Positions 400-17,036 of a DNA stretch of 21,595 bases are shown here, one piece after another (position 1 is the stretch's first letter; each line of letters opens with the position of its first letter). The position numbers and the translations under genes were made by a program. The stretch comes from a virus. The stretch lies in the IMG/VR virus record IMGVR_UViG_3300042434_000470, positions 1 to 21,595 of that record; one strand, written 5' to 3'. The notes beneath the pieces were generated by a model that was not told the origin of the DNA, ran no database searches, and saw only the letters and a list, made by a program, of their open reading frames with translations.

Positions 400-684
400 A
401 TGGAAAAAGCACTAACAACTGAACAGGCAAAAGTAGAATTTGAATCACATCTTCTAATTGGTTTATTTAAATCAACAGTTGAGCAATCAACACAATTAAC
501 TGGTAAATTTAAACATAAGATGAAAGCTGATTTTAATCTATGGCAAAAACAAGGCTTTAAAATAGTTGAAGAACTTGAAAAAAGAAACATAACAGACGTT
601 GAGTACTTAGATAAAATAGGCGATATTTATCATACTATGAACTCAAATATGCGTGAAGAATTTTACAAAGGTTTGAAATCATGA
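400..684 (+). CDS. Hypothetical helical phage protein (94 aa)
   Basis: The ATG at 400 follows the previous stop by two bases, and the stop overlaps the methyltransferase start as ATGA at 681-684. This points to translational coupling. The product looks almost wholly alpha-helical, with KVEFESHLLIGLF in the N-terminal half and IVEELEKRNITDVEYLDKI in the second half. It has no Cys cluster, signal peptide or membrane segment. It resembles the many small phage proteins found between recombination and replication genes. No function is assigned. Confidence 0.62.
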   Translation: MEKALTTEQAKVEFESHLLIGLFKSTVEQSTQLTGKFKHKMKADFNLWQKQGFKIVEELEKRNITDVEYLDKIGDIYHTMNSNMREEFYKGLKS

Positions 685-1340
685 AATTAACTGATAAAAT
701 AGAAATTACTAATGAAGATAACATGGTTTTAATGGCTCGATATCCTGATAACTATTTTGATTTGGCAATAGTTGACCCGCCTTATGGGATTGATGCCGAT
801 GTGAAAAACTCACAAAACAAAGTGCAAAGTAAAAAATCAGCAACTAAATCAAAAAAGTATGGCTCTCAATTATGGGATGCAAATATCCCAACAGATGAGT
901 ATTTTGATGAGTTGATGAGAATTAGTAAAAAGCAGATTGTTTGGGGTGCAAATTATTTTGGGTTAGTTGGTGGAATGATTTATTGGCATAAGAATGTAAC
1001 AATGCCCACTTATAGTACTGGAGAATTGGCTTGGGTTAGTTGGTTAAATAAATTAGACTTTATTGATATAGCGTGGCACGGAATGATACAACATGATATG
1101 AAAAACAAAGAAACGAGAATACACCCCACTCAAAAACCCGTAGCACTTTACAAATGGATTCTTGACAAATACGCGAAAGAAGGCGACAAGATACTTGACA
1201 CCCATCTAGGCTCAGGCTCAATAGCAATAGCTTGTCACGATTATGGTTTTGATTTAACCGCCTGTGAATTAGATAAAGAATACTTTAATAAGGCAATAAA
1301 AAGAATTAACAATCATGTTGCACAATTAAAATTAATTTAG
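681..1340 (+). CDS. DNA methyltransferase (N6-adenine/N4-cytosine type, beta-class order)
   Basis: This 219-aa protein is a probable solitary DNA methyltransferase using S-adenosylmethionine. Catalytic motif IV is DPPYGI at residues 32-37. A variable stretch that may recognise the target follows, then HPTQKP at 148-153, and SAM-binding motif I is DTHLGSGS at 173-180. Motif IV before motif I is the beta-class arrangement. Motif I is altered from the usual DPFxGSG form, a variant often seen in phage enzymes. Length is at the short end for the family, so the target-recognition region is small. No restriction gene is adjacent, so a self-protection or regulatory role is more likely than a restriction-modification pair. 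The -33 part of a promoter lies within its last codons. Base specificity cannot be read from the sequence. Confidence 0.9.
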   Translation: MKLTDKIEITNEDNMVLMARYPDNYFDLAIVDPPYGIDADVKNSQNKVQSKKSATKSKKYGSQLWDANIPTDEYFDELMRISKKQIVWGANYFGLVGGMIYWHKNVTMPTYSTGELAWVSWLNKLDFIDIAWHGMIQHDMKNKETRIHPTQKPVALYKWILDKYAKEGDKILDTHLGSGSIAIACHDYGFDLTACELDKEYFNKAIKRINNHVAQLKLI

Positions 1341-1348
1341 TATATTTG
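1318..1348 (+). promoter_or_regulatory. Bacteroidetes-type promoter (TTG-N20-TATATTTG)
   Basis: TTG at 1318-1320 and TATATTTG at 1341-1348 are separated by 20 bases. This matches the known Bacteroidetes primary sigma consensus of a -33 TTG/TTTG and a -7 TAnnTTTG. The -33 element lies in the last codons of the methyltransferase gene and the -7 element follows its TAG stop directly. Transcription should begin near 1353-1356, the base of the first hairpin of the RNA downstream. It is the only good match I noticed next to a gene start or gap in the window. Confidence 0.72.
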
Positions 1349-1352
1349 CACT

Positions 1353-1473
1353 ATCGGAGTAACGACCGATTTCAAGAAATACAATCACATTAAAACATTT
1401 AGCCTCTAAGTGTTCAGGTGCAGAGTGATTGCTGCATGGTTTCGTAAACCAACTGAACATTTAGGGGTTTTTT
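1353..1473 (+). ncRNA. Candidate structured phage RNA with pseudoknot and own terminator
   Basis: The 146-base gap between genes holds no open frame of note but a dense set of complementary segments. P1 is ATCGG (1353-1357) with CCGAT (1366-1370). P2 is a 15-bp stem, 1403-1417 with 1453-1467, including two G-U pairs. P2 encloses P3, TGCAG (1419-1423) with CTGCA (1432-1436), and P4, TGGTTT (1437-1442) with AAACCA (1446-1451), forming a three-way junction. Seven of the eight P3 loop bases, GTGATTG (1425-1431), are the exact reverse complement of the otherwise unpaired CAATCAC at 1382-1388. A T-run follows P2. A promoter ends five bases before P1. The result would be a transcript of about 120 nt. 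It could be a free small RNA or a leader attenuator for the replication gene at 1487. I do not recognise a known RNA family. Confidence 0.62.
1403..1473 (+). terminator. Intrinsic terminator formed by the long P2 stem and T-run
   Basis: CCTCTAAGTGTTCAG at 1403-1417 pairs with CTGAACATTTAGGGG at 1453-1467, and six T follow at 1468-1473. The stem is 15 bp with two G-U pairs and is G+C-rich next to the T-run. Unlike a usual terminator its 35-base interior is itself folded into two hairpins. The next gene begins 13 bases after the T-run and has no separate promoter that I can see, so read-through or conditional termination is likely. Confidence 0.6.
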
Positions 1474-1486
1474 AATTTATAAAATT

Positions 1487-2143
1487 GTGAGAAAATCATT
1501 TATATTACATATTGATAGTTTAGGTATTTTAAATGAATTAACTGATGAACAAGCTGGTCAATTATTTAAACTTATTTATAATTATTATAACCCAAACAAA
1601 CCCATTGAAACCCAAATAACCCAATTGGTTAATTTGGCTTTTTATCCATTTAAAAGTCAATTTGAAAGAGACTTACAGGCATATAATAAAGTATGTGATA
1701 GGAATAAAAATAATGGTATGTTAGGAGGTAGACCTAAAAAAAATAACCCAAACAAACCCAAAAAACCCGATAATGATAATAAGAATAAAAATAATAATGA
1801 TAATGATAATAATAATGATAATAAAAATAATAAGAATTTACCTGCTCTTAAAAATAAATATTTAGATTCAATTACTCTTTCAGATATTGAATATAATAAA
1901 TTATTATCTGAATATGCTCAGCATGAGGTTGATTGGATGATTGATTGTTTAAATAATTATAAAATGAGTAGTGGTGTTAGATACAAATCAGATTATCATG
2001 CTATTTGCAAGTGGGTTAAAGATGCTTTTAGAAAAGCAAAGGTTGATTTTATTAAAGACAATAATACAAGCGAAGTAAGAATAGCAACAGCAATGAAAGC
2101 AATTGAAAACATTAACTGGGACGATTATACAAACCAACTATGA
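1487..2143 (+). CDS. Phage replication protein, DUF6291 N-terminal domain, DnaD-like C-terminal region
   Basis: The start is GTG at 1487; the first in-frame ATG lies about 230 bases further in and would remove the conserved N-terminus. Residues 1-85 (FILHIDSLGILNELTDEQAG, then a hydrophobic helix and the MLGGRPKKN end) fit DUF6291, a domain at the N-terminus of phage replication or helicase-loader-like proteins. Residues about 86-118 form a linker rich in Asn, Asp and Lys. The C-terminal part, with SSGVRYKSDYHAICKWVKDAF, resembles the end of DnaD/replisome-organiser proteins. The likely role is bringing replication machinery to the phage origin. It lies directly downstream of the structured RNA and overlaps the next gene by ATGA. 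Confidence 0.68.
   Translation: MRKSFILHIDSLGILNELTDEQAGQLFKLIYNYYNPNKPIETQITQLVNLAFYPFKSQFERDLQAYNKVCDRNKNNGMLGGRPKKNNPNKPKKPDNDNKNKNNNDNDNNNDNKNNKNLPALKNKYLDSITLSDIEYNKLLSEYAQHEVDWMIDCLNNYKMSSGVRYKSDYHAICKWVKDAFRKAKVDFIKDNNTSEVRIATAMKAIENINWDDYTNQL
1771..1836 (+). repeat. AT-only low-complexity tract encoding an Asn/Asp/Lys linker
   Basis: A run of imperfect AAT, GAT and AAA-type triplets spans about 66 bases within the replication gene and contains almost no C. It encodes a flexible polar linker between the N-terminal and C-terminal domains. Period-3 units suggest slippage-driven length variation that keeps the frame. Confidence 0.7.
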
Positions 2144-2988
2144 ATCAAATAACAACAACAAATGGATTTTCAGCTTTAGAAGTTGAAGCCATGCAGAAAC
2201 TAAATGATTATTTAAAAACATTCATTGAAGTAAAAAATGAAGTTAAAATAATTCATAAAGACAAACAGGAAGTATTAACTCAACTTTATGCAATCGTAAT
2301 TAAGACAATTGAATTAAGCGGTGAAAACAAAAAATACAACTTAGATAATCAAACTATTAAAAACGTAGCTGGTTTTGTTTATGAGTACGTTTTAGAAAAT
2401 TATAAGGGTGCAACACTATCCGAGCTAAAAAAAGCGTTTAAAATGGGAATAAGTGGTGAATTTGGTGAATTTGTAGGGTTTGGTACTGTAACATTCACTA
2501 AGTTTATTAAAAGTTACATGAGCTATTCAAAAAGAGAACAAGCTATTAAAGAATGGTTTAAATACCAAACACCTACAACTGAAAAGCCAATCACTAAGTT
2601 TTTTGAGCAAAATTTACAGATAGCTAATTACTTTTTTAAAGTATGTGAAGAAAAAAACTCGGAGCGATTCCATACAATTTTAAACCATGAAGACAATGTA
2701 ATGCACTTACCTTCTATTTATGAGTTCCTATATGCTAATTATCAAATATCATTTACCGAAGAAAGCAAAGAAATAATTAAGAAAAAAGCTAAAATCAAAT
2801 ACAATAATTATATTAAAAAGTCAGGATTAAAAGATGCTGATTCAAAAGGTTATCAAAAAATAATTACTTCAGTAATAGATAATCAAAATAAAACATTTGA
2901 TAATTACCTTAAAACACAGGCTTTAATCTTTTTAACTTTAAAACTAAAGCAACAAGGTAAAACATTTGATAATTTAAAAAGAATATGA
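2140..2988 (+). CDS. Probable replication-module protein (unknown function, 282 aa)
   Basis: The gene overlaps both neighbours by ATGA (2140-2143 and 2985-2988). The 282-residue product is basic and mainly helical. The central segment GATLSELKKAFKMGISGEFG, followed by FGTVTFTKFIKSYMSY, resembles a part seen in proteins next to replication genes in Bacteroidetes phages and plasmids; this is recognition by eye, not a named family. A mostly polar C-terminal half ends in a helical KTQALIFLTLKLKQQGKTF. No Walker, zinc or nuclease motif is visible. Position after the DUF6291 gene suggests a helicase-loading, primosome or single-strand-binding accessory role, which remains a guess. Confidence 0.55.
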   Translation: MNQITTTNGFSALEVEAMQKLNDYLKTFIEVKNEVKIIHKDKQEVLTQLYAIVIKTIELSGENKKYNLDNQTIKNVAGFVYEYVLENYKGATLSELKKAFKMGISGEFGEFVGFGTVTFTKFIKSYMSYSKREQAIKEWFKYQTPTTEKPITKFFEQNLQIANYFFKVCEEKNSERFHTILNHEDNVMHLPSIYEFLYANYQISFTEESKEIIKKKAKIKYNNYIKKSGLKDADSKGYQKIITSVIDNQNKTFDNYLKTQALIFLTLKLKQQGKTFDNLKRI

Positions 2989-3788
2989 AAATAATAAATT
3001 CATTAAGTGGTGGCAAAACTTCAAGTTACATGGCATTCCATTATCCAGCTGATTATAATATATTTTCACTTGTTAGAATAGAAGATGTTAATTGTAAACC
3101 AAAAGATAAAAGTTTAATTAAATATGTTTCTGATAAAATAGGAATGGAATTTATAGCAACAGCAGAAAGTGATAAAACTCTTTATGTTATGAGAGACCTC
3201 GAACAATTAATTGGAAAAGATATAATTTGGGTAAGTGGGCAAACATTTGAAAAAGTGAATGGTAAAAGGTTACCTAATCAACAATGGAGATTTTGCACAA
3301 CTGAAATGAAAATGCGCCCAATATTTGACTGGTGGTTTAAAAATATATGTGAAAAAGTTAAAATGGGAATAGGTTTTAGATATGATGAAAAAGAAAGAGC
3401 TGAAAGATTAACAACTAAATTTAAAGGAATAGTAGGTAAAAGAGGAATAAAAAATAAATGGGAAGAAATTGAATGGAGAGAAGGTTACTTTCCTTTAATT
3501 GAAAATAAAATAAATCATTACCATGTAAATCAATGGGCTAAAAATACTAATTTATTGTTTCCTGAAGATTCAAATTGTGTAGGCTGTTTTTGGAAACCAG
3601 TCCAACAATTAAGAAAAAATTGGAATGATGAACCTGAAAAAATGCAATGGTTTGCTAATCAAGAAAATAAAATAAAAAGAACATTTAAAAAAGAAATTAC
3701 CTATGAACAAATAAAATCAATAGGAATTCAAAGTGATTTTATATTTGGAACAGGTAGTGGATGCCAAGCTGGTTATTGTACTGATTAA
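2985..3788 (+). CDS. PP-loop ATP pyrophosphatase, PAPS reductase/DndC-like (phage)
   Basis: This 267-aa protein belongs to the adenine nucleotide alpha-hydrolase (PP-loop) superfamily. The N-terminal NSLSGGKTSSYMA has the ATP-binding SGGKTS loop at residues 8-13. FCTTEMKMRP, with Cys104, matches the conserved segment that binds the nucleotide-sulfate side in CysH/DndC proteins. Further cysteines lie at 198 and 201 (NCVGCFW) and at 260 and 265 near the C-terminus, so an Fe-S or zinc site is possible. The CysH catalytic ECGxH tail is absent, so true PAPS reduction in cysteine synthesis is unlikely. Phage members are common and have no settled function; tRNA or DNA sulfur chemistry or nucleotide modification are candidates. 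No dnd or queuosine-pathway genes are nearby. Confidence 0.82.
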   Translation: MKIINSLSGGKTSSYMAFHYPADYNIFSLVRIEDVNCKPKDKSLIKYVSDKIGMEFIATAESDKTLYVMRDLEQLIGKDIIWVSGQTFEKVNGKRLPNQQWRFCTTEMKMRPIFDWWFKNICEKVKMGIGFRYDEKERAERLTTKFKGIVGKRGIKNKWEEIEWREGYFPLIENKINHYHVNQWAKNTNLLFPEDSNCVGCFWKPVQQLRKNWNDEPEKMQWFANQENKIKRTFKKEITYEQIKSIGIQSDFIFGTGSGCQAGYCTD

Positions 3789-4018: not shown

Positions 4019-4512
4019 TTAGTGAGCTAGTAAATAACAAAATCTACAAACAAATTACTCGGAATGTATGCCACAATCACGAACTACAAGACGACCTTCA
4101 TTTTGAAGCTGTTTTAATTATTATTGAAAAGAAATTTGACTTAACCGAAATTAGAAACCTTAAACACTTTTTTTCAGCAGTAGTTTGGAGAACCTGGCAT
4201 TCAAATAAATTTAGAAAAAAGTATTTTGTAGACCATGTTAAGTTTGTAGACAATTTAAACGAGATTATAGAAGAAAAAGAAAATATTGATTATTCAGTAT
4301 TGATTAACTTTCTCGAGAGTTCACCACAAAATGAAACAGAATTTTACGAAGTCAATTTACTAAGATTGTATATTTTACATGGCGATGCAAAGAAATTAAG
4401 CAATAAAACAAAGATACCTTACAGAACAGTAGCAAACGATATTAAATTAATCAAAGACAAACTCAAACGACAGCACAATGAAAAAAATTCTGATAAAGGC
4501 GAATATGAATAA
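4015..4512 (+). CDS. Sigma-70-like RNA polymerase factor (phage)
   Basis: The start is GTG at 4015, overlapping the previous stop as GTGA. The 165-aa product has the layout of a small sigma-70/ECF-like protein. Residues about 1-70 resemble region 2 (YKQITRNVCHNHELQDDLHF, then AVLIIIEKKF and a Trp-containing FFSAVVWRTWHSNKFRKKY). An acidic linker follows. The end, LYILHGDAKKLSNKTKIPYR and TVANDIKLIKDKLKR, is a helix-turn-helix like region 4. Such proteins occur between early and late genes in Bacteroidetes phages and probably direct host RNA polymerase to phage promoters. Region 2 is divergent, so a DNA-binding regulator without core-polymerase contact remains possible. It overlaps the next gene by 35 bases. 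Confidence 0.65.
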   Translation: MISELVNNKIYKQITRNVCHNHELQDDLHFEAVLIIIEKKFDLTEIRNLKHFFSAVVWRTWHSNKFRKKYFVDHVKFVDNLNEIIEEKENIDYSVLINFLESSPQNETEFYEVNLLRLYILHGDAKKLSNKTKIPYRTVANDIKLIKDKLKRQHNEKNSDKGEYE

Positions 4513-5518
4513 CCTTAATGGGTTATCCTTTCACCGCTTAATAGTTCCATTCTCAAAAGTCTCTGACATGATAGACTTTCAATGTGATGTATTTCCAGAC
4601 TTAGATGCAGCGACTGATGAACAGCTTAAACAGTATTCAGCAGTTGTTTATCAAAGAGAAATAGATACAAACGGAAAATCACTTGAAATAATTAAAAAAT
4701 ATCATTCACTTGGAATTAAAGTGATATTTGACATTGACGATATTTGGACATTGCCTAAAAGCCATTATTTAAGTAGGCTTTATGAAATTCACAACATCCC
4801 AGCTCAAACAGTTGAAATACTTAAAAATGTAGATTTAGTAATAACCACAACTAAACATTTAGCATCAAAGATTAAAAAGTACAATAAGAATGTTGAGGTA
4901 ATTCCTAACTGTTTAGATCACGAAGATGAGCAATGGAAACCAAACAAAACTAAAAGTGATAAAATAAGATTTGGCTACATTGCCGGAATTTTTCACAAAG
5001 AAGATATTTCAATTTTAGAAATGCCAATTAGAAAGGTATTAAGGCATGATATAAACGCTCAATTTGTTTTAGGTGGATATAATGACAATGCAGATTATAA
5101 CTATTATGAAAAGGTAATGAGTGGTGGAACTTTAACCGACAAATACCAAAGAGTATATAGTTTACCTGTTCATGATTACGGAAAGGCTTATAATGAAACT
5201 GATGTTAGCTTAATCCCATTGCAATCTAACTCATTTACCGAATGCAAAAGCGAAATAAAGTTACTTGAAGCTGGGATGCATGGCAACCCTGTAATTGTTA
5301 GTGATGTACTACCATATAACATATTTCCAAAAGAAACTGCAATATTTTTAAATAATAGTGACATCAATGGCTGGTACAAGGCAATAAGAAACCTAAGCAA
5401 AGATGAATCAATGAGAAAAGAATATGCAGAAAGTTTACAAAAATATATTGAAAAACATTATAACATAAACAAATGGACTCAAATAAGAAAACAGATTTTA
5501 CAATCGGTATTGGCGTAA
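4478..5518 (+). CDS. GT-B glycosyltransferase, GT4-like
   Basis: This 346-aa protein has the two-domain GT-B pattern. The N-terminal half carries HRLIVPFSKVSD and FDIDDIW at residues 84-90, a motif seen in phage and LPS-type glycosyltransferases. The next segment is DLVITTTKHLASKI, then NVEVIPNCLD, which marks the link between the Rossmann domains. The C-terminal half has RFGYIAG, the ADVSLIP-like TDVSLIPL, and ECKSEIKLLEAG (255-266), where Glu255 and Glu264 sit in the donor-binding E-x(n)-E region. GNPVIVSD follows. It should transfer a sugar from a nucleotide-sugar donor in the cytoplasm. It is the first gene of the sugar cassette and overlaps the sigma-like gene by 35 bases and the next gene by 46. 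Confidence 0.88.
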   Translation: MKKILIKANMNNLNGLSFHRLIVPFSKVSDMIDFQCDVFPDLDAATDEQLKQYSAVVYQREIDTNGKSLEIIKKYHSLGIKVIFDIDDIWTLPKSHYLSRLYEIHNIPAQTVEILKNVDLVITTTKHLASKIKKYNKNVEVIPNCLDHEDEQWKPNKTKSDKIRFGYIAGIFHKEDISILEMPIRKVLRHDINAQFVLGGYNDNADYNYYEKVMSGGTLTDKYQRVYSLPVHDYGKAYNETDVSLIPLQSNSFTECKSEIKLLEAGMHGNPVIVSDVLPYNIFPKETAIFLNNSDINGWYKAIRNLSKDESMRKEYAESLQKYIEKHYNINKWTQIRKQILQSVLA

Positions 5519-6129
5519 CTACAACTCCAAATCGTAAAGAATACGTAAATAGATGGCTAGAATACTTTGAAAAGTTTAAACCTTCTAATTACCATCTGCA
5601 CATTCACGAAGATGTACACTACAAAGGTGTTGCATACTCAAAAAATCAAAACTTATATACTTTAAGAGACTGCGACTTTATTTTCTTATTTGACGATGAC
5701 TGCTATCCATTTGAAAATAATTGGGCTGAATATTTTATTAACTCAGGATATAATCACTTACTATACTTAAAACCTAGTCATAATTTAAAAGCTAAAATAA
5801 ACGATTTAGAGATATATCGAGATTGTGGTGGTGTATTTATATACTTAACAAAAGAAGTATTAAATAAAGTAGGTTATTTTAATTCTGAGTATGGGCAGTA
5901 TGGATTTGAACATGCAGGTTACTCAAACAGAATTTATAAAGCAGGATTAACCGATGCACCTTACCAACAACTTGAAGAAACTGATAAATACATTTGCGCC
6001 TTAGATTATATTATTGAACACAAATCAAGTATTCCTGAATATAAAAAAGGAAAGTTAATAGAAGAAAATCGAAAAGTATTTATAAAGGAATTGCAAAGCG
6101 AAACTATTTTTTATAACTTTGAAGAGTGA
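5473..6129 (+). CDS. GT-A glycosyltransferase-like protein
   Basis: The 218-aa product begins after a 46-base overlap with the GT4-like gene. GVTTTPNRKEYVNRWL at the N-terminus and CDFIFLFDDDCYPF, with Asp74-76, form the nucleotide-binding strand and metal-binding DxD region of a GT-A fold. The later DCGGVFIYLTKEVLNKVGYF and QYGFEHAGYSNRIYKAG resemble the acceptor-side part of GT2 and related transferases, where an E/D-H motif helps catalysis. No membrane segment is present, so it is probably soluble and cytoplasmic. Donor and acceptor are unknown. Confidence 0.75.
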   Translation: MDSNKKTDFTIGIGVTTTPNRKEYVNRWLEYFEKFKPSNYHLHIHEDVHYKGVAYSKNQNLYTLRDCDFIFLFDDDCYPFENNWAEYFINSGYNHLLYLKPSHNLKAKINDLEIYRDCGGVFIYLTKEVLNKVGYFNSEYGQYGFEHAGYSNRIYKAGLTDAPYQQLEETDKYICALDYIIEHKSSIPEYKKGKLIEENRKVFIKELQSETIFYNFEE

Positions 6130-6824
6130 ACGAACACATACTTTTTAAACTAGCAACTCGCAGCAGACCACAAAAAGCAAAAAAAGCAATTGATAATATC
6201 ATAATGCTTTGTAATTCAATGAATTATACTATTTTAGTTAGTATTGATGAAGATGACGAAAGTATGTTTGGTTTTAGTTATCCTGATGACAATGTATTTA
6301 TAAGTAGAGGCACTTCCAAAAATAAAATAGATGCCATTAATCGAGACATGGATATTTTTGAGGGTTGGGACATTTTAATCAATACTTCAGATGACATGGT
6401 ATTTGAAATTAAAGGATTTGACAATATAATTAGGCAAGACTTTAAAGGAAACTTCGACCAGGTTCTTCATTATACAGATGGCAATCAACACGCAAACATT
6501 ATGACTATGTCAATAATGGGCTTCGACTACTATAATCGTTTTGGTTATATTTACCATCCCGATTACAAGTCATTGTGGTGTGATGCTGAAGCTACAGAAG
6601 TTGCTCACCTTTTAGGCAAATATGAGTACATGGGTGATAGCAAAGTTTTATTTAGACATATGCATCCTGCATGGGGACTAGCAGATTACGATGAACAATA
6701 CAGAAAAACAGAAAGTCAAGAAATGTGGAACACAGATTATAATTTGTTTAAATATAGAAAGTCAGAAGATTATTTTTTACCTAAACATTTAATTATAAAT
6801 AAACCTAAATACAATAATGTATAG
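6126..6824 (+). CDS. GT-A-like glycosyltransferase
   Basis: The start is GTG at 6126, overlapping the previous TGA as GTGA. The 232-aa product has an N-terminal FKLATRSRPQKAKKAI typical of a GT2-like first strand and helix. An acidic VSIDEDDESM follows, then WDILINTSDDMVF with Asp89-Asp90 as the likely metal and nucleotide ligand. YKSLWCDAEATEVAHLLGKY and LFRHMHPAWG near the end fit the acceptor-side conserved region. It differs clearly in sequence from the preceding transferase, so the pair probably adds different sugars and is not a recent duplication. It overlaps the FkbM gene by 8 bases. Confidence 0.72.
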   Translation: MNEHILFKLATRSRPQKAKKAIDNIIMLCNSMNYTILVSIDEDDESMFGFSYPDDNVFISRGTSKNKIDAINRDMDIFEGWDILINTSDDMVFEIKGFDNIIRQDFKGNFDQVLHYTDGNQHANIMTMSIMGFDYYNRFGYIYHPDYKSLWCDAEATEVAHLLGKYEYMGDSKVLFRHMHPAWGLADYDEQYRKTESQEMWNTDYNLFKYRKSEDYFLPKHLIINKPKYNNV

Positions 6825-7419
6825 TCAAAATAACGAAGAACAAATTATATTAGAATACTTTAAAGATTTTAAAGGTCATTTATTAGATATTGGAGCAAAT
6901 GATGGTGTAACTTTATCAAACAGCAGAAAGTTAATTGAATTAGGTTGGAGTGCAGATTTAGTTGAACCTGCTCCTATTCCATTTAAACAATTACAAGAAC
7001 TTTATAAAGAAAATAACAAAGTTAAATTACATAATTGCGCTATAAGTGATTTTACTGGCATAACTTCATTTTATGTTAGTGGTGAACATTTAGGCAAAGG
7101 TGATAGTGGCTTGCTTTCTACTTTATCAATTAAGGATAAACAAAAATGGGAAGGCACAACTGATTATTTTGATTTAACAGTTCAAACTTATAATTGGAAA
7201 GATTTTAATAAATCCAAGAAATATGACTTTATTAGTATAGATGCTGAAGGATTTGACTTGTCAATACTTAAACAAATAAACTTAGATGAATTTAATGTTC
7301 AAATGGTTTGTGTTGAACATAATAACATAGATACTCAAATTTATATGGAATATTTAGAATCATTCTATTTTCAACCAATTTTAATAAATAACGAAAACAT
7401 AATAGCAGTAATATCATGA
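6817..7419 (+). CDS. FkbM-family SAM-dependent methyltransferase
   Basis: The 200-aa product shows the FkbM pattern. The SAM-binding strand-loop is HLLDIGANDG, with Asp24-Gly30 as the core. Then come SADLVEPAPIPFKQL (the acidic residue that contacts the SAM ribose), LHNCAISDFTG, and YDFISIDAEGFDLSIL with DAEG at 142-145. FkbM enzymes O-methylate sugars or sugar-like acceptors in polysaccharide and natural-product pathways. Here it sits between glycosyltransferases, so a glycan hydroxyl is the likely target. It overlaps its neighbours by 8 bases upstream and ATGA downstream. Confidence 0.88.
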   Translation: MYSQNNEEQIILEYFKDFKGHLLDIGANDGVTLSNSRKLIELGWSADLVEPAPIPFKQLQELYKENNKVKLHNCAISDFTGITSFYVSGEHLGKGDSGLLSTLSIKDKQKWEGTTDYFDLTVQTYNWKDFNKSKKYDFISIDAEGFDLSILKQINLDEFNVQMVCVEHNNIDTQIYMEYLESFYFQPILINNENIIAVIS

Positions 7420-8030
7420 GAGTTCATCCTGTTTATAGTTCTGAAGAGGTTTTAATATTTACCTATAAAATGTCAATTGATATTTTAGAAAAAGATATTA
7501 AAGGAGATTTTATTGAATGTGGAGTTGCTGCTGGTAGTCAAATAGGTGCAATGCAACAGGCAATGTTAGATAAACAAATATCAAGAATTATTTGGGGGTT
7601 TGATAGTTTTGAAGGAATACCATTTGCAGGAATAAATGATACAGAACAACCAGGAATAGGTGAAATTGATATAAATAAAATTGGAGTATTAGAAACAACA
7701 AGTATTGCATCATATTCACAAGAAGATGTATTAAAAAACTTTCAATTATGGAATTTACCAACTAATAATTTAAAATTGATAAAAGGATGGTTTGAAAATA
7801 CAATTGAACCAACATCAAAAGAAATAAAAGAAATTGCAATGTTAAGATTAGATGGTGATTTATATTCATCTACTTATGTTTGTTTAGAACATTTATTTGA
7901 AAAAGTAGTTATTGGTGGAATTATAATAATAGATGATTGGAATTTAACAGGATGTCAAAAAGCAGTAAAAAAGTTTATTGATGGAAGAAAAATAAAGAAA
8001 TTTAACGAAATAGCATATTTTATAAAATGA
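7416..8030 (+). CDS. TylF/MycF-type O-methyltransferase
   Basis: The 204-aa protein carries the TylF-family signature. It shows GDFIECGVAAGSQIGAMQQA (Glu34, Gly36 region) for SAM, WGFDSFEGIP, MLRLDGDLYSSTYVCLEHLF with Asp146 and Asp148, and GGIIIIDDWN with Asp173-Asp174. The acidic residues fit the Mg-binding site of macrocin O-methyltransferases. The family methylates sugar hydroxyls. It is near the short end for the family but has all main motifs. Two hand-counted 60-base lines in the gene gave 12 and 14 G+C, against 25 in one capsid-gene line, which hints at a different origin or weak selection on composition. It overlaps both neighbours by ATGA. Confidence 0.88.
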   Translation: MRVHPVYSSEEVLIFTYKMSIDILEKDIKGDFIECGVAAGSQIGAMQQAMLDKQISRIIWGFDSFEGIPFAGINDTEQPGIGEIDINKIGVLETTSIASYSQEDVLKNFQLWNLPTNNLKLIKGWFENTIEPTSKEIKEIAMLRLDGDLYSSTYVCLEHLFEKVVIGGIIIIDDWNLTGCQKAVKKFIDGRKIKKFNEIAYFIK

Positions 8031-8608
8031 TTTTATCAATCCTTATTCCTACTGTACCTCAACGTACTAACTTATTTTTAGAGTTACATTCTGAAATAAA
8101 TAAGCAGTTAGAGTTATCAAATTCTTTTGGCTTAGTTGAGGTTATTTCAGATGATGCACCAAAAGGAACTAAAACAACAGGACAAAAAAGAAACGATTTA
8201 CTAAATGCAGCGCAAGGAGAATATGTTTGGTTTATTGATGATGATGATATGATAATGCCTAATGCTATTTATAATATAATTACAGCCTTAGAACAAAAAC
8301 CTGATGCACTAGCCATTAATGGAATAATGACAACTAATGGAAGAGATAAAAAAGAATGGTATATTAGTAAGAATTTAGAATACACTGCTGACTGGTCAAA
8401 AGGTTATGAAATTTATTTAAGACCTACAAATCACATCACTCCAACAAAAAGAGATATTGCAAGACTAATAAAGTTTGAAGATAAAAGTAATTTTGAAGAT
8501 TATGCTTATTGCATGGAACTTAAAAGATTAGGTTTAATTAAAACAGAAGTAGAAATAAAAGAACCAGTTTACCATTACAGATACCAAGACTATGACAAAC
8601 TATACTAA
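8027..8608 (+). CDS. GT2-family glycosyltransferase
   Basis: This 193-aa protein is a short GT-A/GT2 enzyme. The N-terminal ILSILIPTVPQR is the classic first strand. TGQKRNDLLNAAQGEYVWFI leads into FIDDDDMIMPNAI with Asp71-74 as the DxD metal and nucleotide site. LAINGIMTTNG and NHITPTKRDIARLIKF, then NFEDYAYCMELKRLG, give the acceptor region with an ED motif that is the likely catalytic base. No membrane anchor is seen. It shares a 17-base overlap with the next gene. Donor and acceptor cannot be told from sequence. Confidence 0.88.
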   Translation: MILSILIPTVPQRTNLFLELHSEINKQLELSNSFGLVEVISDDAPKGTKTTGQKRNDLLNAAQGEYVWFIDDDDMIMPNAIYNIITALEQKPDALAINGIMTTNGRDKKEWYISKNLEYTADWSKGYEIYLRPTNHITPTKRDIARLIKFEDKSNFEDYAYCMELKRLGLIKTEVEIKEPVYHYRYQDYDKLY

Positions 8609-16890: not shown

Positions 16891-16901
16891 TTGGTACTTA
16901 T

Positions 16902-17036
16902 ATGTTAGAGACAATAAAAAAAATTAGTGAAGATTTAAAGGTAGGATTTAAAGCAGCCTATTCAATCGCATCACTTTATAAAAATGATTCCTTTCAAAAA
17001 AAAGTTAAAAAGAAAATGAAATGGCAAAGAAAGTAG
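16902..17036 (+). CDS. Small basic hypothetical protein (44 aa)
   Basis: ATG at 16902 opens a 44-codon frame ending TAG at 17034-17036. It fills the gap between the tail-tip and tape measure genes and overlaps the latter by 16 bases. The product is strongly basic and helical (ETIKKISEDLKVGFKAAYSI, then ASLYKNDSFQKKVKKKMKWQ). The basic tail and position suggest a small tail-assembly accessory, but there is no recognised family. Support is positional and compositional. Confidence 0.45.
   Translation: MLETIKKISEDLKVGFKAAYSIASLYKNDSFQKKVKKKMKWQRK

Follow-up and report, generated by a model that had tools for sequence, protein, structure and literature searches.

A phage RNA with its 5′ end predicted to pair into its own terminator, a probable leader of replication genes in flavobacterial phages

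Leaders that decide the expression of early or replication genes are known from a few enteric phages. The put antitermination RNAs of phage HK022 consist of two simple hairpins with no integrated terminator and are proposed to act on the elongating polymerase. In the rep attenuators of pT181/pIP501-type plasmids, the rep gene is separated from its promoter by a terminator, and a countertranscript from the opposite strand is used. A conserved antiterminator is the hallmark of the classical attenuator. In the Salmonella prophage Gifsy-1, transcription from a phage promoter gives IsrK, a small RNA that ends at its own terminator, and partial read-through gives the mRNA of the next phage genes (PMC4825925). 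The target of IsrK is an antirepressor gene of a temperate phage, and activation of its translation in trans has been shown (PMC4825925). In the immunity leader of phage P4 (CI RNA, seqA/seqC), pairing between RNAs accompanies premature termination in a replication operon and a processed RNA maintains lysogeny in trans, as described in PMC4825925.

The RNA described here was found in a window of 21,595 nt, positions 1 to 21,595 of the IMG/VR virus record IMGVR_UViG_3300042434_000470. A structured RNA of ~120 nt (1353-1473, + strand) lies in a gap of 146 nt (1341-1486) which, as originally predicted, is the largest of the window, although narrowly and with respect to called open reading frames of at least 50 aa; the second largest gap (130 nt, 16891-17020) has a weak fold. 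On balance, this element is probably a cis-acting 5′ leader with a conditional terminator that heads a phage early or replication operon. Its features are collected in Table 1.

Table 1. Features of the leader region and its neighbouring genes in the window.
Feature	Position	Strand	Basis or remark
Upstream gene: DNA methyltransferase	681-1340	+	Profile matches
Promoter: TTG, 20-nt spacer, TATATTTG	1318-1348	+	Fits Bacteroidota -33/-7 consensus
P1 hairpin: ATCGG/CCGAT, 8-nt loop AGTAACGA	1353-1370	+	Fold; first paired base is the predicted +1
PKa 5′ strand: CAATCAC, partner is the P3 loop (1425-1431)	1382-1388	+	Perfect complements in 23/23
Possible competing hairpin: ACATTTAG/CTAAGTGT, would sequester the terminator 5′ arm before the 3′ arm exists	1395-1413	+	Prefix folding
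P2 terminator stem: 15 bp, 1403-1417/1453-1467, encloses P3 and P4	1403-1467	+	Covariation
P3 hairpin: 1418-1423/1432-1437, 8-nt loop 1424-1431 (A + GTGATTG)	1418-1437	+	Covariation
P4 hairpin: 1438-1442/1446-1450	1438-1450	+	Covariation; TCGT (1442-1445) can kiss the P1 loop
U-tract of intrinsic terminator	1468-1473	+	Sequence; retained in nearly all relatives
A/T-rich spacer to start codon, 13 nt, translation start region	1474-1486	+	10-15 nt in nearly all long-class relatives
Downstream gene: GTG start, DUF6291 and replisome-organizer-like protein; proposed regulated gene	1487-2143	+	PHROG 13246, Pfam

From a direct reading of the window, TTG (1318-1320) is followed by 20 nt and then by TATATTTG (1341-1348). 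Promoters of the Bacteroidota follow a -33/-7 consensus (PMC7366714, PMC9723704) and the flavobacterial sigma-A box is positioned at -12 to -5 (PMC9723704). The window promoter presents TAnnTTTG at -12 to -5 and TTG/TTTG near -33, as a Bacteroidota sigma-A promoter does. Of the TAnnTTTG matches in the window, compared against the list of open reading frames, this site is the one that combines a gene-free gap with a correctly spaced TTG. Since the flavobacterial box sits at -12 to -5, the predicted +1 is A1353, where the pairing of P1 begins; the distance from TTTG to P1 is exactly 4 nt in 23/23 long-class relatives.

The MFE of the RNA is -39.3 kcal/mol compared to -24.0 ± 3.2 kcal/mol in dinucleotide shuffles (z = -4.75), and 0/200 shuffles were as good. 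The base of the terminator stem is CCUC/GGGG and is followed by UUUUUU, the sequence of an intrinsic (Rho-independent) terminator, and the conserved block extends beyond the U-tract to the downstream start codon at 1487. The original prediction had described a promoter with TTG and a 20-nt spacer ending at 1348, a first hairpin beginning at 1353 near the transcription start, a 15-bp stem enclosing two hairpins, and a T-run, and each of these is present where it had been placed. Two long-range pairings were absent from that description: 1382-1388 with 1425-1431 (PKa, 7 bp) and 1362-1365 with 1442-1445 (PKb, 4 bp). The original prediction had also been unable to match the RNA to a known family; a search of Rfam 15 with gathering and relaxed thresholds identified no family in the window or in 12 related loci, the best sub-threshold score being 19.1 bits against a gathering threshold of 100. 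A reading frame inside the leader was discarded as well since, by eye, the window RNA offers only ATG GTT TCG TAA.

Related IMG/VR contigs were gathered by protein searches with both neighbour genes, and the RNA was located within them by blastn and pattern scans. The resulting alignment of the long class, A1, contains 23 distinct sequences and 41 pairs. While the counts are not tree-corrected, 96.9% of the A1 cells are paired and 20 pairs (108 cells) are altered on both sides; shuffles gave 12.1 pairs and 30.5 cells, and slid partners no more than 5 pairs and 10 cells. In P2, 99.7% of the cells are paired with double changes in 7/15 pairs; P3 is 100% paired with double changes in 4/6 pairs, and in P4 double changes occur in 3/5 pairs. 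For PKa, ten different 7-mers are found that are perfectly complementary in all 23 sequences, as counted by direct 7-mer matching (MAFFT places the PKa strand one base off in 4/23 rows), and more variants are present in contig L207 and in the Cellulophaga phage Nekkels_1. PKb, formed by ACGA in the P1 loop and TCGT in P4, changes from G-C to U-A in two A1 sequences, and its partners are replaced wholesale by TGATGA/TCATCA in L207/L183 and by TTGGAA/TTCCAA in Nekkels_1. P1 is invariant across A1 and altered in L207/L183 and Nekkels_1. The compensatory change expected by the original prediction is strong in the IMG/VR relatives, with the variation in P1 appearing only beyond A1. From the aligned sequences, the number of distinct, perfectly compensated helices is a stronger argument than the raw covariation counts. 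G-U exceeds A-C by 72 to 9 in the long class and by 26 to 0 in the short class. Judging from this excess, the functional molecule is most likely the + strand RNA, and a function as a hairpin at the DNA level is argued against.

The same architecture was sought in unrelated sequences by scanning for TAnnTTTG followed by a 5′ segment (X) complementary over at least 7 nt to a partner (X′) inside a terminator hairpin. The scan returned 81 unique places from 2,888 promoter matches, compared to 8 from 2,999 in reversed sequence and 6 from 1,314 with a permuted promoter; a few of the 81 are located within genes or are duplicates in which two promoter matches lead to one element, and the number is not a frequency because the scanned loci were picked for related genes. 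Ten long contigs were scanned, and in nine of them the output showed, by eye, one to three convincing copies each. Class assignments other than long and short were also made by eye. In most elements outside the long class, X is located at +6 to +12 and X′ follows 46-58 nt later, a geometry that would be compatible with coupling to transcription. Among the relatives of one replication-initiator gene, those with their own promoter and gap carry such an RNA in unrelated sequence classes, as judged by eye, and the others directly follow an upstream gene. The design is kept across many flavobacterial phages though nearly all letters differ. Homologous phages with unrelated sequence between the same genes had been named in the original prediction as evidence against a functional RNA. 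Such sequence is literally what was found, but it is not counted against function because the architecture is the same.

The short class is represented by an alignment, A2, of 34 sequences. Its RNA is composed of P1, P3 and a terminator stem whose GAGUA/GAAAG internal loop is invariant, and a kissing helix of 7 bp joins the P1 loop to the P3 loop. A2 is 100% paired, with 13 pairs (130 cells) altered on both sides in counts that are not tree-corrected. The sole match to the short-class core in the GTDB collection was a Psychroflexus MAG phage contig bearing GTGGAGG/CCTCCAC. By eye, the classes share architecture and not unpaired sequence, and an unpaired pocket common to all members, as would mark a ligand-binding riboswitch, is not seen. 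Free-standing genes for NUMOD4/HNH homing endonucleases often follow immediately after short-class leaders (L166, L171, L194 and similar); Pfam matches were obtained in the three tested, and the U-tract nearly abuts the ATG. In a GATG subfamily (L014 3691, L008 3950, L111 1726), an open frame runs from P1 across the whole RNA. A coding role for this frame was dropped because the other short-class subfamilies have no start codon, and the frame is probably due to chance.

Isolated phages also bear the element, before replication genes and near a primase. A blastn search of the window RNA and of one short-class RNA against isolated phages identified no relatives, and the carriers were reached via protein and synteny. 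Model R1 detects Nekkels_1 (43.1 bits, E = 3.7e-8), which blastn missed, and here the long class directly follows an adenine methyltransferase as it does in the window. The Cellulophaga phages phi10:1 and phi19:1 have ~30 nt of upstream sequence in common with Nekkels_1 but carry a different class, GTACGAC/GTCGTAC. Flavobacterium phages lillamy9-1, hattifnatt9-1 and filifjonk9-1 present GTGAGACG/CGTCTCAC in the gap before the replication module, and further isolates of the lillamy-type study share the downstream spacer. That study comprises 38 virulent phages and one temperate phage (PMC7077304). Signs of lysogeny control were sought in 18 contigs, which may be fragments, and no Phage_integrase, no HTH_3 repressor above cut-off and no NusG-type antiterminator, the sole antiterminator type sought, was recognised. 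The absence of an integrase is weak evidence because the contigs are often fragments.

The placement of the element bears directly on its role. For 73 of the 81 scan elements a start codon lies within 150 nt, and the distance from the end of the U-tract to that codon has a median of 13 nt (IQR 11-17) compared to a median of 71 nt for ordinary terminators of the same contigs; a position directly 5′ of a gene at near-constant spacing is that of an attenuator-type leader. The long-class spacer keeps its length while the downstream genes belong to over a dozen unrelated families. Longer spacers of about 34-46 nt are found in some short-class members and in isolates such as lillamy9-1. The proteins encoded downstream of long-class and short-class elements fall into 23 clusters, with types that include DUF6291/replisome organizers, Lin1244-type proteins, methyltransferases, NUMOD4/HNH endonucleases and small proteins without an assigned role, and across these differing gene contexts the flanks are far less conserved than the RNA. 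In the window itself, the downstream product matches the replisome organizer PHROG 13246 (E=1.7e-19) and Pfam DUF6291 (E=7e-18). The pattern would be compatible with a portable promoter-leader-start unit and appears hard to explain for a free RNA gene. The near-fixed spacing could partly reflect an exchange of modules by recombination at the RNA. The original prediction had called the element a self-contained RNA gene and had offered a regulatory leader of replication genes as a second option. The promoter and terminator of its own remain; a free-standing gene is improbable because the U-tract sits near-constantly before the start codons of unrelated genes, and with a median spacing of 13 nt rather than 71 nt the second option has become the more likely of the two.

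Several further observations concern the neighbouring genes and spacers. The replication initiators encoded at 1487-2143 and downstream of the RNA in L014, L025 and L157 have a common C-terminal domain (EHEVxWMLxKLNDYKAS...), but their N-terminal domains are swapped, and the position of the RNA immediately ahead of the swapped portion suggests a recombination boundary. Longer spacers between terminator and start codon (about 35-45 nt) contain another similar stretch, about GGTnATCTTnAAACC, just after the U-tract (L110, L117, L181, L191, L294 (phi10:1) and L298 (lillamy9-1)). In L270 (~1880-2003) and L274 (~1895-2003), CTCACTA, which is the 5′ partner of the terminator-internal GTAGTGAG, recurs in this leader class at or just before the start codon, the start-codon copy of this region in L270 being ACTCACTATG. 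The inner GTAGTGAG segment could pair with either CTCACTA copy, a possible control of translation. Elsewhere in the window, a phosphoadenosine phosphosulfate reductase-like gene (2985-3788; PHROG 424, E=1.3e-27) adjoins the replication genes, and a cluster of glycosyltransferase-like and methyltransferase-like genes occupies 4478-8608 of this phage contig.

The proposed conditional-terminator leader may be considered in terms of what can be read from the sequences, namely the promoter, the fold, both back-pairings, the terminator, the start-codon distance and the swapping before many genes. We infer that termination is partial or regulated and that the back-pairing sets the level of read-through. 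Transcription would begin at 1353, with P1 and the single strand 1382-1388 made first. As the inner terminator hairpin emerges, its two loops would pair back to the P1 loop and to 1382-1388, which would tie the 5′ end to the terminator. Upon completion of P2 and the U-tract, RNA polymerase would stop and release a folded RNA of ~120 nt, and this stopped transcript would be an abundant small RNA. Polymerases that escape would produce an mRNA with its start codon 13 nt past the U-tract. Candidates for the trigger are the speed of RNA polymerase, a factor from the phage or its host, or the RNA that is released. The competing hairpin at 1395-1413 may represent the read-through state in the long class. 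It is predicted with P of at least 0.86 in 20/23 long-class prefixes and as a shifted 6-bp version in 2, for a presence in 22/23 members; it is absent in L125 and not apparent by eye in the other classes. If general, the modelled hairpin would be a classical antiterminator; however, a conserved antiterminator, considered as the general mechanism, is good in the long class but fails in L125 and is not apparent elsewhere by eye. The timing or stability of the back-pairing is proposed to set read-through because back-pairing is what the classes share.

Other explanations can be weighed against the conditional-terminator leader. A stand-alone phage small RNA, which would exert its effect in trans on an RNA of the host or the phage, on RNA polymerase or on a host defence, with its proximity to a start codon incidental to gene packing, is unlikely but deserves some weight. 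A dedicated promoter and terminator, the location of P1 at +1 and the compact fold with tied ends would be in keeping with it, and the one to three convincing copies seen by eye in nine of ten long contigs would suit it also; yet the near-constant short distance to the start codon is kept across more than 20 gene families, and a full terminator right before a gene with no intervening promoter would silence that gene. The paired segments vary freely with compensation and leave no fixed seed for a conserved target. This drift argues against a conserved base-pairing target for the small RNA, acting on host or phage targets, that the original prediction had considered. A further, improbable explanation, a dual RNA like Gifsy-1 IsrK, would have the released leader act in trans on its own nascent or read-through leader as a feedback on the replication operon. 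Pairing between copies is possible because every molecule contains both X and X′, the association with replication genes is frequent, and IsrK is a precedent for one promoter-RNA-terminator-gene unit working in this manner (PMC4825925), but the expectation is that X finds X′ within its own molecule.

An RNA tied to replication itself, as a primer or an origin structure, is very unlikely. Although the element often lies directly before a replication-initiator gene, and near a primase in isolates, one and the same class is also found before HNH endonucleases, methyltransferases and small genes without an assigned role, and there are contigs with two or three elements. An explanation by chance hairpins, or by an ordinary terminator that lacks a special fold, can be practically dismissed: terminators are common in phage intergenic regions, but the z-score of the fold and the control scans speak against this explanation and the covariation refutes it.

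Returning to the leader, a broader reading is offered tentatively and is doubtful in its full extent. The elements would form a large leader group of several classes with unrelated sequences, each with a 5′ end kissing the inside of its terminator, that gives flavobacterial phages self-contained control of replication genes; once released, the leader may exert feedback in trans and signal the dosage of the genome, and the kissing sequences may serve as private addresses that differ between co-resident elements. A single arrangement, in which the 5′ end of the RNA pairs with the terminator of the same molecule, is found repeatedly in flavobacterial phages under unrelated sequences and is missing from Rfam. 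This suggests that a widespread switch, so far undescribed, stands at the head of early genes in phages. The set is a natural mutation series on how a pseudoknot alters intrinsic termination, and the isolated carriers (Cellulophaga Nekkels_1, phi10:1 and phi19:1; Flavobacterium lillamy9-1 and relatives) make the design testable. It would yield new families for Rfam as well as compact parts for gene expression in Bacteroidota genetics.

Compared by description, the element resembles the HK022 put RNAs in being structured and in occupying the very beginning of early phage transcripts, and differs from them in its integrated terminator. With the pT181/pIP501-type attenuators it has in common a terminator between promoter and replication gene; in contrast to these, a countertranscript is not indicated, as no antisense TAnnTTTG, the only promoter type examined, is present on the minus strand near 1340-1500. 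As described in PMC4825925, the P4 immunity leader is likewise a phage replication-operon leader with RNA-RNA pairing at termination, whereas the pairing here is predicted within one molecule and the 18 contigs, possibly fragments, have no integrase. IsrK differs in its temperate setting, the carriers here including isolates from a study of mostly virulent phages, and the present element has no Rfam match and is known from sequence. The likeness to IsrK lies in a single promoter-RNA-terminator-gene unit with two products, known for IsrK and proposed here. The element is a new leader-RNA family that is closest in its working to Gifsy-1 IsrK and the P4 immunity leader.
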